Part shown: positions 3,723 to 10,168 of the stretch, piece after piece
How the letters are laid out: every line of letters starts with the position of its first letter
Position numbering within the stretch: the stretch's first letter is position 1
Source of the DNA: a virus
Length of the DNA: 38,623 nucleotides
IMG/VR virus record: IMGVR_UViG_3300020450_000046
Span: 1 to 38,623 of that record
Reading direction: 5' to 3' (one strand)
Translations under genes and position numbers: made by a program
The notes under the pieces: model-generated
Database searches by the model: none
Seen by the model: only the letters and a program-made list of their open reading frames with translations
What the model was told of the DNA's origin: nothing

Positions 3723-3929
3723 ATGATTTTTCCTTCTTACAAAAGACCGATACAATACATCAATAATACGCCATATATTATTCATGCAATTATTCCTATT
3801 GAAAGATGTAAGAATATAACAATGATTAAAGAGTGGTTAGAGGTTGATACTGCATTTAAAGTACAAAGAGAAGGAGTATATTATTTTTGTGAAACCATAG
3901 AAGATGCACAATGGGAACCAATTACATAA
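3723..3929 (+). CDS. hypothetical protein (68 aa)
   Basis: A short protein with alternating hydrophobic residues and a Y-Y-F-C segment near residues 53-56. I recognise no family. Its last 19 bases overlap the next gene in another frame, which supports a coupled operon. Confidence 0.55.
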   Translation: MIFPSYKRPIQYINNTPYIIHAIIPIERCKNITMIKEWLEVDTAFKVQREGVYYFCETIEDAQWEPIT

Positions 3930-4462
3930 ATAAAAAAGTTTACCAAGAAGTATTACTTGAATTTGGTGATTGTAATTTAATATTAGAAAAAATTCCACAC
4001 ATAAATGAAACCAGAAGTAAGGTGTTATCTGATGGTACAAAAGGTATAAAAGAAACAAGAACATCTTATCAGTATGATTTTTACTTAGAAGATTTTCAAA
4101 AACAAATGTTATTGAAAAAACTTAAAAAGTTAAGTATAAAAGATTTACCAGATAAAATTAGAATATTAAAATATACCGAAGGGCAAAAGTTCACAAAACA
4201 TAGAGATAAAAACTCAAAAGATTTTTCTGATAGATTTAAAACTTTGATTATACAACTTTCACATGAATATGAATATGAAGGTGGTGATTTACTTGTATAT
4301 GAAAATGATAATGTAATCAAAGCGAATAAAGAAAAGGGAAGTGTTATCTTATTTAATGCTGAACTATATCATGAAGCAAAAGAAATTATTAAAGGAACTC
4401 GATATGTATTAGTATCATGGTTATCTGAAAATGATTTTGATTTTAAAAAAAATATAATATGA
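3911..4462 (+). CDS. 2OG-Fe(II) oxygenase
   Basis: A 183-residue protein of the prolyl 4-hydroxylase-like 2-oxoglutarate/Fe(II) superfamily. Iron ligands are visible as H97-x-D99 in KFTKHRDKN and H154 in ELYHEAKEI. R164 in GTRYVLVSW is the expected 2-oxoglutarate-binding Arg. The EGGDLLVYE strand is typical of the jelly-roll core. The substrate is unknown and could be a protein, a nucleotide or DNA. The stop overlaps the dCMP deaminase start (ATGA), so the two are made together. Confidence 0.85.
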   Translation: MGTNYINKKVYQEVLLEFGDCNLILEKIPHINETRSKVLSDGTKGIKETRTSYQYDFYLEDFQKQMLLKKLKKLSIKDLPDKIRILKYTEGQKFTKHRDKNSKDFSDRFKTLIIQLSHEYEYEGGDLLVYENDNVIKANKEKGSVILFNAELYHEAKEIIKGTRYVLVSWLSENDFDFKKNII

Positions 4463-6448: not shown

Positions 6449-6457
6449 ATATTTATA
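6449..6457 (+). promoter_or_regulatory. ATATTTATA motif, candidate late promoter
   Basis: An exact match in the 46-bp gap before the tandem Hint gene, 31 bp from its ATG. It suggests late expression of the Hint cassette. Confidence 0.45.
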
Positions 6458-6488: not shown

Positions 6489-8858
6489 ATGAAAGGTGTT
6501 CTTTTTTCAGCAGATTTTGTTGAGGATAATAATGGTGGTTATAGACTCTTAGAGTTAAATACAGATACAGGCTTTATATCTGCATCCCTCAATAATAATT
6601 TTGATTTTTCTGCTTTTAAAACAGTATTAAGTGATAACAATATTACAACAGTAGAAACTGTACACAAACAATTTCATAATCATTTTGTAGATAAACTTGA
6701 ATCAGAACTTTCAGGTACAGATGTAACTACATTCACAAGACACCTTCAAGATAATACTACTATGTATCCAAACTCACCAACAGATGCAAGTAATAAATTT
6801 ATATTAAGATTAGCTTATGATGAGGGTGCACTTTTTGATTCAACCTATTGTAAAGAAAGAATAAATGTACTAACTTTATTTCATGAAAATTCAGCAACTG
6901 GTTCAATACCAGCATTTTATTACTCTGGCAGTTCTACAACATATAATACATTAATCGAAGAAGATTTAAACGACCACGCTGTACTACCTGATTATGTACA
7001 AAAAGATGTAAGTGAAGTAGCTGAAAAGGTTAGATTTGCAAAAGGTGGTAATTCAGTATCATCATCAGAAGATAGAATAAACGATGCTATTAACAACTAT
7101 GTTGATAAAAACAATCAATCAATAGAAAAATATTATTTTAATAGTACCCAACTTGGTTCTACTAATAAAGTAGAAAGTATAAGATGTTTTTATATTGCAG
7201 TATATGTTGAAGCTATAGGTGGATTTGAGTTGTGTAAGCTTGCTAGTTATAAAGTAAATGCTCTTGAAGAGATACCATCAAGTATTACAATAGATTCAAA
7301 TGGATATAATCTTTACCATCAAAAACATTATTATGAATTTGCAACAAACTATCCTGATGATATTAATACAACAGGCTTCAAAGGTACAGAAAATGTTTAC
7401 AATGAAGATGGTACTTTAAAATTATTTAGTAACTTAGCAAAAGATGATAGAATAAAATCATTCTTTATATCAGGTTCACCAACAACAGATGTTGTTGCTG
7501 ATTTTGAAGCATGGAACTATGTTGGAGCAACTTTACCAGACCCATTCTATGTAACATCATCTTTTGTTGAAAATATGTTATCATCATCTCTTGTTACAGG
7601 CCTAATGGGAGAAGTAAAAATTAGTGATAACGAATCACTTTATTCTGGTCTTAACCAACACTTCCTTGTACACGAATCATCATCTAATTCATTTAAATTT
7701 ATTGAATTAAAAACAATTGATAAAGATGACCATTCATTAGTTGACCATAGTGGTAGTAAGATAGATATAGTAGATACAGCTTGTTTACTAATAGAAGAAC
7801 AAAACGAAAGTATTTATAATCCTGATGTAGAGATTCAAGATACATTTATAGTTAGTGCATCAGCACCTATTGTTGCACACAACGCTCCTTGTTTCGTAGC
7901 AGGTACACCTGTAACAATGGCGAATGGGGAAAGAAAAAATATCGAAGATGTTGTTGTAGGAGATGAAGTTGCTTGTTGGGATTTTGAAAATAATGTTCGT
8001 CATGGTGGAGTTGTTGAAAGTGTAAGAGTAAAAGAAAACGAAGAAACAGTTAACTTTAAATCATTTGAACCAACTCATTTAGACCTTGAAGGTACACCTG
8101 ACCACCCAATTTATGTTAGAGGTAAAGGATGGTGTTCATATAAACCAGCACAAACACTTGAAGATTCAGGTCTTGAAGTTCAACAATTAGAAGAAGGTGA
8201 TTGGATTAAAATCTTAGCAGAAGATTATGGTGATGGTGGATATATTCAATTAAATTACATACAAGAAAATGTTGATAAAAAAACTGTTTATAATTTAGAT
8301 GTAGTAACTCCACATCAAAACTTTTACGCAAACGATGTTTTAGTACATAATAGATTTATACCATCATGTTGTTTCCAAGGTTCAACTCAAGTTCAACTTG
8401 GGAATGGTGACCACAAAGCAATTAATGAAATAGAAATAGGTGATGTTGTTAGAACATATAATGTTGAAACATCTGAGTATGGTTCATCTACTGTAACTCA
8501 ATTACATAACACAACAAAACTTTCAGACCATGTTTCAAGAAACGAATCAGTTGGTGGAAGTGGTATGGGATTCTGGTTTATAAATGGAAACATAAATGTT
8601 ATGTTTACACCTGAACATCCATTTTGGACTAAAGATGGTTGGAAAGCATTGGCACCTGATTCTTCACAAGAACCATTTGCAACTGAACAAGAATCTAAAA
8701 CACTTAAAATAGGTGACTACATTTTTGAAGGTGATGAGTGGGTAGAAGTTTATGATATACAGTTTGCATCAACTGAAGAAGATGAAGCAGTTTACAATAT
8801 AACAGTAGAAAATACTCATACATATCTTGTAGATGGTATATTAGTACATAATAAATAA
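6489..8858 (+). CDS. large protein with two tandem C-terminal Hint domains
   Basis: A 789-residue protein. Residues 1-467 are a Ser/Asn/Asp-rich region of unknown function. RLLELNTDTGF near residue 20 and a later F-I-L-R-L-A-Y-D-E-G-A-L-F-D segment recall ATP-grasp proteins, but this is weak. Hint 1 spans C468-N621: CFVAGTPV start, GTPDHP block, VLVHN end followed by Arg. Hint 2 spans C628-N788: CFQGSTQVQ start, FTPEHPFW block, ILVHN end followed by a single Lys and the stop. Each is about 155-160 residues with no homing endonuclease. Catalytic N-terminal Cys, block B T-x-x-H and terminal His-Asn are present in both. The +1 residue is Arg or Lys, not Cys/Ser/Thr, so self-cleavage rather than splicing is expected. 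Confidence 0.88.
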   Translation: MKGVLFSADFVEDNNGGYRLLELNTDTGFISASLNNNFDFSAFKTVLSDNNITTVETVHKQFHNHFVDKLESELSGTDVTTFTRHLQDNTTMYPNSPTDASNKFILRLAYDEGALFDSTYCKERINVLTLFHENSATGSIPAFYYSGSSTTYNTLIEEDLNDHAVLPDYVQKDVSEVAEKVRFAKGGNSVSSSEDRINDAINNYVDKNNQSIEKYYFNSTQLGSTNKVESIRCFYIAVYVEAIGGFELCKLASYKVNALEEIPSSITIDSNGYNLYHQKHYYEFATNYPDDINTTGFKGTENVYNEDGTLKLFSNLAKDDRIKSFFISGSPTTDVVADFEAWNYVGATLPDPFYVTSSFVENMLSSSLVTGLMGEVKISDNESLYSGLNQHFLVHESSSNSFKFIELKTIDKDDHSLVDHSGSKIDIVDTACLLIEEQNESIYNPDVEIQDTFIVSASAPIVAHNAPCFVAGTPVTMANGERKNIEDVVVGDEVACWDFENNVRHGGVVESVRVKENEETVNFKSFEPTHLDLEGTPDHPIYVRGKGWCSYKPAQTLEDSGLEVQQLEEGDWIKILAEDYGDGGYIQLNYIQENVDKKTVYNLDVVTPHQNFYANDVLVHNRFIPSCCFQGSTQVQLGNGDHKAINEIEIGDVVRTYNVETSEYGSSTVTQLHNTTKLSDHVSRNESVGGSGMGFWFINGNINVMFTPEHPFWTKDGWKALAPDSSQEPFATEQESKTLKIGDYIFEGDEWVEVYDIQFASTEEDEAVYNITVENTHTYLVDGILVHNK

Positions 8859-8868
8859 AAGGATAATC

Positions 8869-9021
8869 ATGGCAGATAAACCAACAATATACAAAACAAT
8901 TCCAATTAGTAATATTACTTCAAGAACTCTTACAAATCTTAGTAGTGATGAGAGTGAGAAATCAGAAAATATACTAAATAATTTCTTTCGATACTTCGAA
9001 AAAAAACATCTTGACCAGTAA
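8869..9021 (+). CDS. small hypothetical protein (50 aa)
   Basis: A 50-codon frame with an A/G-rich run (AAAAGGA) before its ATG, ending in TAATG shared with the next start. It is Ser/Thr/Asn-rich in the first half and helical at the end (NNFFRYFEKKHL). No family is recognised. Its position right after the tandem Hint gene makes it a possible partner or substrate. Confidence 0.6.
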   Translation: MADKPTIYKTIPISNITSRTLTNLSSDESEKSENILNNFFRYFEKKHLDQ

Positions 9022-9668
9022 TGCCAATCTTTGCAACAATGTGTGTTGGTGATGAGTTTATTTCTAATTACCAAAACACAGCAAATGAAATATCAGAGCA
9101 GATTCCACTTCATATACTTACAGATAAAACAGAATCATTTCCATCTGCAATAACACACGAATATAATAAAACATTTAGTTACTACGATAAGTTGTATTTT
9201 ATATTTATGTTAGCAGAAAAATTTAACGAAAGAGTTATTTTTGTTGATGTGGATTGGTTAGAAAATTTAAATTTAAATCTAAAGTTGGATGATACATCTG
9301 TTTACACTTATAAATTATTTGATTTAAATTCTGAAAATATTTTAACAAAACATTTTGGTGATGATGAAAGAATGTTACAAAAAAAATTACCAAAACTTAT
9401 AGAATCAAATAACATATTAGATACCTATATTGCAGAAGCATTTATTTCCATACCAAAACTTAAGAACATAGAAGATTATATTTGGGATTTAAAATTATTA
9501 GAATCAAGTATAAAGGATATTTATACAACCTTAAATAGAAACCCAAGGTTTAGTAGATATATAAAATATGGAGATGGATATGGTGAAGGGTGGGCACTTA
9601 CTACGATAGTAAACAAATATAATTTATCAATAAAAGAAATTGATTGGAGAAAAGAAAAAATAATTTAA
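9021..9668 (+). CDS. glycosyltransferase-like protein (GT-A type, tentative)
   Basis: A 215-residue protein. The N-terminus (FATMCVGDEFI, then IPLHILTD) and the strand VIFVDVDWL with D76-V-D78 follow the layout of GT-A glycosyltransferases, in which a DxD motif binds the metal and nucleotide sugar. The later G-E-G-W-A-L segment would fit the acceptor end. The match is by pattern only, so substrate and activity are unknown. It shares overlapping stop/start codons with both neighbours. Confidence 0.5.
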   Translation: MPIFATMCVGDEFISNYQNTANEISEQIPLHILTDKTESFPSAITHEYNKTFSYYDKLYFIFMLAEKFNERVIFVDVDWLENLNLNLKLDDTSVYTYKLFDLNSENILTKHFGDDERMLQKKLPKLIESNNILDTYIAEAFISIPKLKNIEDYIWDLKLLESSIKDIYTTLNRNPRFSRYIKYGDGYGEGWALTTIVNKYNLSIKEIDWRKEKII

Positions 9669-10168
9669 TGTATAAATTAAGAAAATTTAAAAACGATAAC
9701 TACAAAACACTAATTAGGTTATATAAAGAATTAGTACCAGCTAGTAAAGAAGAAAAAAATTATATTGCACAAAACTCAGTTGGTTTAATTAATTATACAT
9801 ATATGGGTAAAGGGCCTGTTGAGATTATTTTTTACTCAATAAAAAATAACCCAAATATAGTAAACTTTTTTTCTAAACATCTTGGTATAAATAAAAACGA
9901 AATAATCTCAATCCATAGTAATCAATATCAAGAAGGTTCAAAAGCTTTAGCACACAAAGACAGTAACTCTTCACGAACCTATTTAATTTTATTATCTAAT
10001 GCAGAGATGGGCGGTGATTTGATATTAGATGATGAACTTGTTTGTTTTGATGAAGTTGGACAAGTAATTGATTATGATGGAGGTGAAGTTAATCATGGAG
10101 TTACTGAAATTAAAAAAGGATATAGAGAAACTTTAGTTGTTTGGACTAAGAGTAAATCACTAATATAA
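9668..10168 (+). CDS. 2OG-Fe(II) oxygenase
   Basis: I chose the ATG that overlaps the previous stop (TAATG) rather than an in-frame ATG at 9644. That gives 166 residues. Iron ligands are H96-x-D98 (AHKDSN) and H143 (VNHGV), and the 2-oxoglutarate Arg is R153 (GYRETLVVW). EMGGDLILDD is the central strand. It is the second enzyme of this superfamily in the window, clearly different from the one at 3911. Hydroxylation of a virion or Hint-cassette protein is a possible role. Confidence 0.8.
   Translation: MYKLRKFKNDNYKTLIRLYKELVPASKEEKNYIAQNSVGLINYTYMGKGPVEIIFYSIKNNPNIVNFFSKHLGINKNEIISIHSNQYQEGSKALAHKDSNSSRTYLILLSNAEMGGDLILDDELVCFDEVGQVIDYDGGEVNHGVTEIKKGYRETLVVWTKSKSLI

Follow-up and report, generated by a model that had tools for sequence, protein, structure and literature searches.

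Intein-like domains usually occur as isolated parasites or as single processing devices. Type A BIL domains, which end in His-Asn and have no nucleophile at the +1 position, mostly cleave and can ligate via an amine (PMC4031507). BIL2 of Tetrahymena has been reported to conjugate its upstream domain to a lysine epsilon-amine (isopeptide bond) without ATP (PMC8616854). Here, we describe a protein family of uncultured phages that combines a predicted ATP-grasp-like domain with an array of Hint domains of this kind.

The window (the whole stretch of DNA analyzed, a 38.6-kb uncultured-virus record) carries T4-like genes (PhoH, baseplate wedge, endolysin, and DNA polymerase), and an open reading frame (ORF) at positions 6489 to 8858 (+) encodes 789 amino acids (Table 1). 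Relatives were gathered with a motif scan and profile scans of IMG/VR. Counting the window protein, these scans yielded 57 distinct Hint-containing proteins, all on uncultured-phage contigs, some of which also carry a T4-type gp23. All 57 share one plan, an N-terminal domain and a degenerate Hint (Hint0) followed by one (18 proteins), two (33), or three (6) further Hints, and full-length relatives are ~31 to 43% identical to the window protein. No family protein was found in a scan of genome_contigs, and the isolated phage records searched matched at the Hints only, with no record holding the whole architecture. In the open-access literature searched, we found no paper that treats inteins or Hints in tandem or a fusion of ATP-grasp and Hint domains, and a jumbo-phage review (PMC7824862) does not describe such a fusion. 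The architecture is real, conserved, and built of known parts, and it is apparently undescribed.

Table 1. Features of the Hint gene and its surroundings (window positions; residues refer to the 789-aa protein unless stated)
Feature	Residues	Position (strand)	Characteristics
TATTTATA motif		6450..6457 (+)	About 30 nt before the start codon; promoter-like, putative function
ATP-grasp-like domain (glutathione synthetase/YgiC order)	1-290	6489..7358 (+)	From predicted model and invariant residues
Hint0	296-465	7374..7883 (+)	Degenerate; Gly in place of Cys1, TxxH absent, H464-N465 kept
Ala-Pro linker	466-467	7884..7889 (+)	Pro467 is the -1 residue of Hint1
Hint1	C468-N621	7890..8351 (+)	T536-P-D-H539; +1 is Arg622; type A BIL-like
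Linker RFIPSC	622-627	8352..8369 (+)	Six residues between Hint1 and Hint2
Hint2	C628-N788	8370..8852 (+)	T707-P-E-H710; +1 is Lys789; type A BIL-like
Single C-terminal Lys and stop codon	K789	8853..8858 (+)	Conserved in the family
Partner ORF	50 aa (own product)	8869..9021 (+)	Separated from the Hint gene by 10 nt; Tyr8 invariant, Lys9 and His47 almost invariant

The Hint array and its conservation

The initial annotation had described a tandem pair of complete Hints, each with Cys1, TxxH, and a terminal His-Asn (HN), and had proposed profile searches and structure prediction as checks. The sequence bears out both domains. Pfam matches above cut-offs were AXH (1.9e-22; residues 469 to 573), Hint (7.8e-12), Vint (3.2e-11), Hom_end_hint (1.7e-10), and PT-HINT (2.2e-7; residues 642 to 788), and the intein C-terminal region model TIGR01443 matched residues 768 to 788. 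Pfam, NCBIfam, and PDB sequence searches back Hint1 and Hint2; for Hint2, these are the Pfam, TIGR01443, and phmmer matches. In an AlphaFold2 model of the 789-aa protein (mean pLDDT, 82.8), residues 466 to 625 have a predicted Hint fold that aligns with Tetrahymena BIL2 (6y75; Z, 22.3; rmsd, 1.7 Å; 146 residues; VIA), a match that, for a predicted model, exceeds chance by far. The AXH (ataxin-1/HBP1) match lies within Hint1, at window positions 7893 to 8207; ataxin-1 chains also matched by sequence at ~1e-5, which suggests that AXH and the phage Hints are detectably related.

The annotated number of Hints was too low, as a third Hint fold had been overlooked. Model residues 294 to 465 align with 2lwy (Z, 19.2; rmsd, 1.6 Å; 138 residues; VIA), a Hint0 profile built from 32 relatives matches the BIL structures 6tmm (1.7e-6) and 2lwy (4e-4), and hhalign pairs Hint0 with Hint1 (probability, 96.5; E value, 8.9e-10). 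Position 1 of Hint0 is Gly in 28 of 32 cases, Ala in 3, Ser in 1, and Cys in none, and TxxH is lost, while the terminal Asn occurs in 57/57 family members (as HN in 54 and as YN, SN, or AN in the remainder). Judged by these residues, all that Hint0 retains of the catalytic set is what serves C-terminal Asn cyclization. In 11 family members (including L044, L057, L065, L080, L081, and L165), the Asn of Hint0 stands directly before Cys1 of Hint1 (HN|C), leaving one scissile bond common to two Hints.

Across the 57 proteins, Cys1 and the terminal HN are present in 92 of 92 intact Hints, TxxH is present in all intact Hints of the first set, and none of the 92 has Cys, Ser, or Thr at +1. As annotated, the array stops one residue before the stop codon. 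This is a family trait: among the 47 proteins with an intact last Hint, the next residue is Lys (44 proteins) or Arg (3 proteins), the tail is exactly "K" in 37, and it is 1 to 7 residues long in all 47. Internal Hints are followed by Arg or Lys in 34 of 45 cases. With a Hint fold, Cys1, TxxH, a terminal HN, and no Cys/Ser/Thr at +1, Hint1 and Hint2 have every sequence feature of a type A BIL and are classed as such, and because the family keeps these catalytic residues throughout, both are likely to be catalytically active in the window protein. Pro occupies the -1 position of Hint1 in 32 of the 57 proteins and never that of later Hints. The last or only Hint is degenerate or shortened at its HN end in ten proteins; it still has Cys1 and one His, so the N-terminal reaction would be the shared one. 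One clade (L045, L046, L009, L053, L059, and L065) has a degenerate last Hint that ends in FIVEDFVVSGLGDNELLN..., lacks HN, keeps Cys1, and is type-B-BIL-like.

In a tree, the Hints group largely by position. Recent tandem duplication is accordingly rejected, and the array is, on this phylogeny, old, with gain and loss of members. Rough median dN/dS values (Nei-Gojobori; pairs of 60 to 97% identity) of 0.12 to 0.22 for all parts indicate purifying selection. All viral contigs were also scanned separately for DNA that encodes NGI-x-VHNK-stop. This returned 23 stretches; those that were translated and lie outside the known loci could, so far as they were readable, be assigned to this Hint family. 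The best matches in isolated phages were mini-inteins of helicases or terminases, polymorphic-toxin-like Hints (Ruminococcus phage, L092), an Rhs-like protein (L095), and intein-like domains within a tail-collar-type protein, gp4 of Salicola phage SCTP-2 (L093), and a head-morphogenesis-type protein of Vibrio phage 1.265.O (L094); all have the same Hint fold in another architecture. The domains in L093 and L094 both have a His-Asn-Cys end.

The N-terminal domain and the gene neighborhood

The 467 residues upstream of Hint1, which the initial annotation had proposed could be released, are more than a cargo: they comprise Hint0 and, before it, an ATP-grasp-like domain. Modeled alone, the N-terminal domain reached a pLDDT of 86.9 and a pTM of 0.84. 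Residues 1 to 287 align with human glutathione synthetase (2hgs; Z, 10.5; rmsd, 5.2 Å; 232 residues), yeast glutathione synthase (1m0w; Z, 10.3), and YgiC (7uk8; Z, 10.2). The top 25 VIA matches are relatives of glutathione synthetase, glutathionylspermidine synthetase, or trypanothione synthetase (Z, 7.5 to 10.5), followed by tubulin-tyrosine ligase complexes and ArgX, which are likewise ATP-grasp. D9, E22-x-N24, R107, Y110, K172, K185, and R232 are invariant in the domain (32/32 for D9, E22xN24, K172, K185, and R232). Judged from the start of the alignment, E22 and N24 presumably sit at the ExN position of human glutathione synthetase. The residues listed for ATP-grasp enzymes are Lys, Lys, Asp, ExN, and Arg (PMC4431377), which the invariant candidates K172, K185, D9, E22xN24, and R232 can supply. 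A Gly-rich ATP loop is not evident between K172 and K185; the R2K clade lacks one as well (PMC4431377).

Pfam, PHROGs, and PDB sequence searches with the N-terminal residues gave marginal and no confident matches, and residues 1 to 467 matched nothing in isolated phages, even at an E value of 10, or in genome_contigs. Because the sequence searches were without a confident match, we call the ATP-grasp fold likely, with homology read from structure alone (Z about 10; rmsd, 4 to 5 Å); an amide or peptide ligase would be the probable identity.

A small partner ORF of about 45 to 50 codons (~47 aa) lies on the same strand, 1 to 99 nt downstream, wherever a checked locus extends that far (46 by clustering, 2 more by HMM, 9/9 in new members, and 4/4 in further divergent members). 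Besides Met1, its only strongly conserved positions are Tyr8, Lys9, and His47, with Arg in place of the Lys in relative L029; median dN/dS is 0.19. The partner alone has no conserved stretches usable for a profile scan, and a scan for its close relatives recovered only known family contigs. No other neighbor is constant across loci. Genes for 2OG-Fe(II) oxygenases are very frequent near the Hint gene (121 copies in 46 loci; positions 3911 to 4462 and 9644 to 10168 in the window), and SPASM-like radical SAM, sulfotransferase-like, SGNH-like, SET-like, and carbamoyltransferase genes (named mostly by eye) also occur there.

The 60 nt preceding the Hint gene contain the motif TATTTATA in 34 of 48 loci, compared with 31 of 739 other genes. 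In the window, it recurs just upstream of genes at positions 214, 4918, 5272, 15011, 26979, 31953, and 35037. Since the endolysin and baseplate operons of the window are likewise preceded by it, TATTTATA hints at a late promoter of this phage group and at late expression of the Hint gene. The T4-type late promoter TATAAATA was found within 120 nt upstream of the Hint gene in 0 of 47 loci.

Proposed self-processing and competing readings

From the predicted fold, the catalytic residues, the architecture, and the partner, we infer, at about an even chance, a self-processing precursor whose ligase-like module sheds its Hint array and has the partner as its likely substrate or target. The precursor would consist of the ATP-grasp-like ligase domain (residues 1 to ~290), the degenerate Hint (296 to 465), one to three intact Hints (two here), and one Lys. 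After folding, the intact Hints would carry out intein half-reactions: Cys1 would form a thioester to the residue before it, and cyclization of the terminal Asn would free the +1 Arg or Lys. Because no Cys, Ser, or Thr stands at +1, the thioester would be hydrolyzed or captured by an amine, and the array would be shed from the ligase-like module rather than spliced; the initial annotation had likewise expected self-cleavage from Arg and Lys at +1, and the residues agree with it. Only a Lys follows the last Hint, so the purpose would be neither to splice exteins nor to set free an effector at the C terminus. The ~47-aa partner would then be acted on by the ligase-like module. Counting against self-processing, shedding alone would not require a strictly kept Asn and exactly one basic residue after it.

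Pro at -1 is a poor substrate for the N-S acyl shift. The annotated release of residues 1 to 467 as a C-terminal thioester is accordingly doubtful, residue 467 being Pro, as is the -1 residue of Hint1 in more than half of the family. Because Pro467 should hinder a thioester at C468, the first junction used here would most likely be N465|A466, through Asn cyclization by Hint0, or the array would be cut at C628; Asn465 cyclization or C628 thioester chemistry appears likelier than a thioester at residue 467. Sequence alone cannot rank cleavage sites inside the precursor.

Two other readings are unlikely, to a similar degree. In the first, a Lys amine captures the Hint thioester, and the ligase-like part is thereby joined to another protein, possibly to the partner via Lys9. 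BIL2, for which such chemistry was reported, is the closest solved structure, and the partner accompanies the Hint gene at every locus checked, with its Tyr8, Lys9, and His47 conserved; against this, Pro467 disfavors a Hint1 thioester, relative L029 has Arg for the partner Lys, and a role of the partner as ligase substrate or chaperone is just as plausible. In the second, the Hints are catalytically silent building blocks of a protein that acts at full length, for example, in the virion. The fold does survive without full chemistry (neither Cys1 nor TxxH is left in Hint0, and one clade has no HN in its last Hint), and there is a weak match to a virion-protein PHROG with a C-terminal Hint (phrog_38766; E value, 0.0034). 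Inert scaffolds would not, however, be expected to keep TxxH in all intact Hints of the first set, nor Cys1 and HN in every intact Hint among relatives as diverged as these.

Less probable again is a covalent tagging cassette, in which the ATP-grasp-like domain would activate or extend a peptide (the ~47-aa partner), Cys1 of the Hints would take the acyl group, and the acyl group or the ligase module would pass to Lys amines on proteins of the host or the virion. If true, it would be a ubiquitin-like conjugation route made from an ATP-grasp ligase and intein-like domains.

We consider it very improbable that we are dealing with selfish elements, be they ordinary inteins or remnants of inteins. 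Phage mini-inteins are among the nearest isolated-phage matches (Vibrio phage helicases; about 30 to 34% identity), but an intein has a nucleophilic +1 residue and a functional C-extein, whereas in the window protein +1 is Arg or Lys, none of the 92 intact family Hints has Cys, Ser, or Thr there, and the C-extein is a single residue, Lys, in 37 of the 47 proteins with an intact last Hint; Hint-free relatives number 0 of 57, and the domains, at about 130 to 167 residues, are too short for an endonuclease. A polymorphic-toxin-like protein whose Hint frees a C-terminal effector is scarcely credible despite the PT-HINT match and similar Hints in Ruminococcus phage proteins with C-terminal domains, as the short tails after the last intact Hint leave no effector domain.

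In this phage lineage, a whole array of Hints is retained on an ATP-grasp-like protein that is always accompanied by the same very small partner; the Hints vary in number, and their catalytic residues are strictly conserved. The two-gene system makes the purpose of BIL domains directly testable, and a phage route of protein modification or maturation may come to light from it, as may new natural amine-capture ligases.

Comparison with known systems

Hedgehog/Hog proteins also have a C-terminal Hint, and their N-terminal part is, as may be the case here, freed or modified via a thioester; their Hint is followed by a sterol recognition region and lacks HN, whereas the phage protein keeps HN and a +1 residue, and a sterol-binding region would not fit in the one residue that follows. 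Glutathione synthetase, YgiC, and glutathionylspermidine synthetase resemble residues 1 to 287 in predicted fold, in the order of elements, and in an invariant ExN near the N terminus. The phage domain differs in its length (287 residues versus about 370 to 600 in the matched chains), in having no evident Gly-rich loop, and in its fusion to Hints.

The type A BIL of C. thermocellum (2lwy) shares with the phage Hints the fold, Cys1, TxxH, the terminal HN, and the absence of a +1 nucleophile. In the phage family, by contrast, one to three Hints stand in direct series behind a degenerate Hint, with linkers down to one residue, the +1 residue is basic, and there is no C-terminal protein part. BIL2 of Tetrahymena BUBL1 (6y75/6tmm) is closest in structure, lies, like the phage Hints, in a multidomain precursor, and has reported Lys chemistry. 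Ubiquitin-like domains flank BIL2; none was detected in the phage protein, where the N-terminal part is ATP-grasp-like instead.
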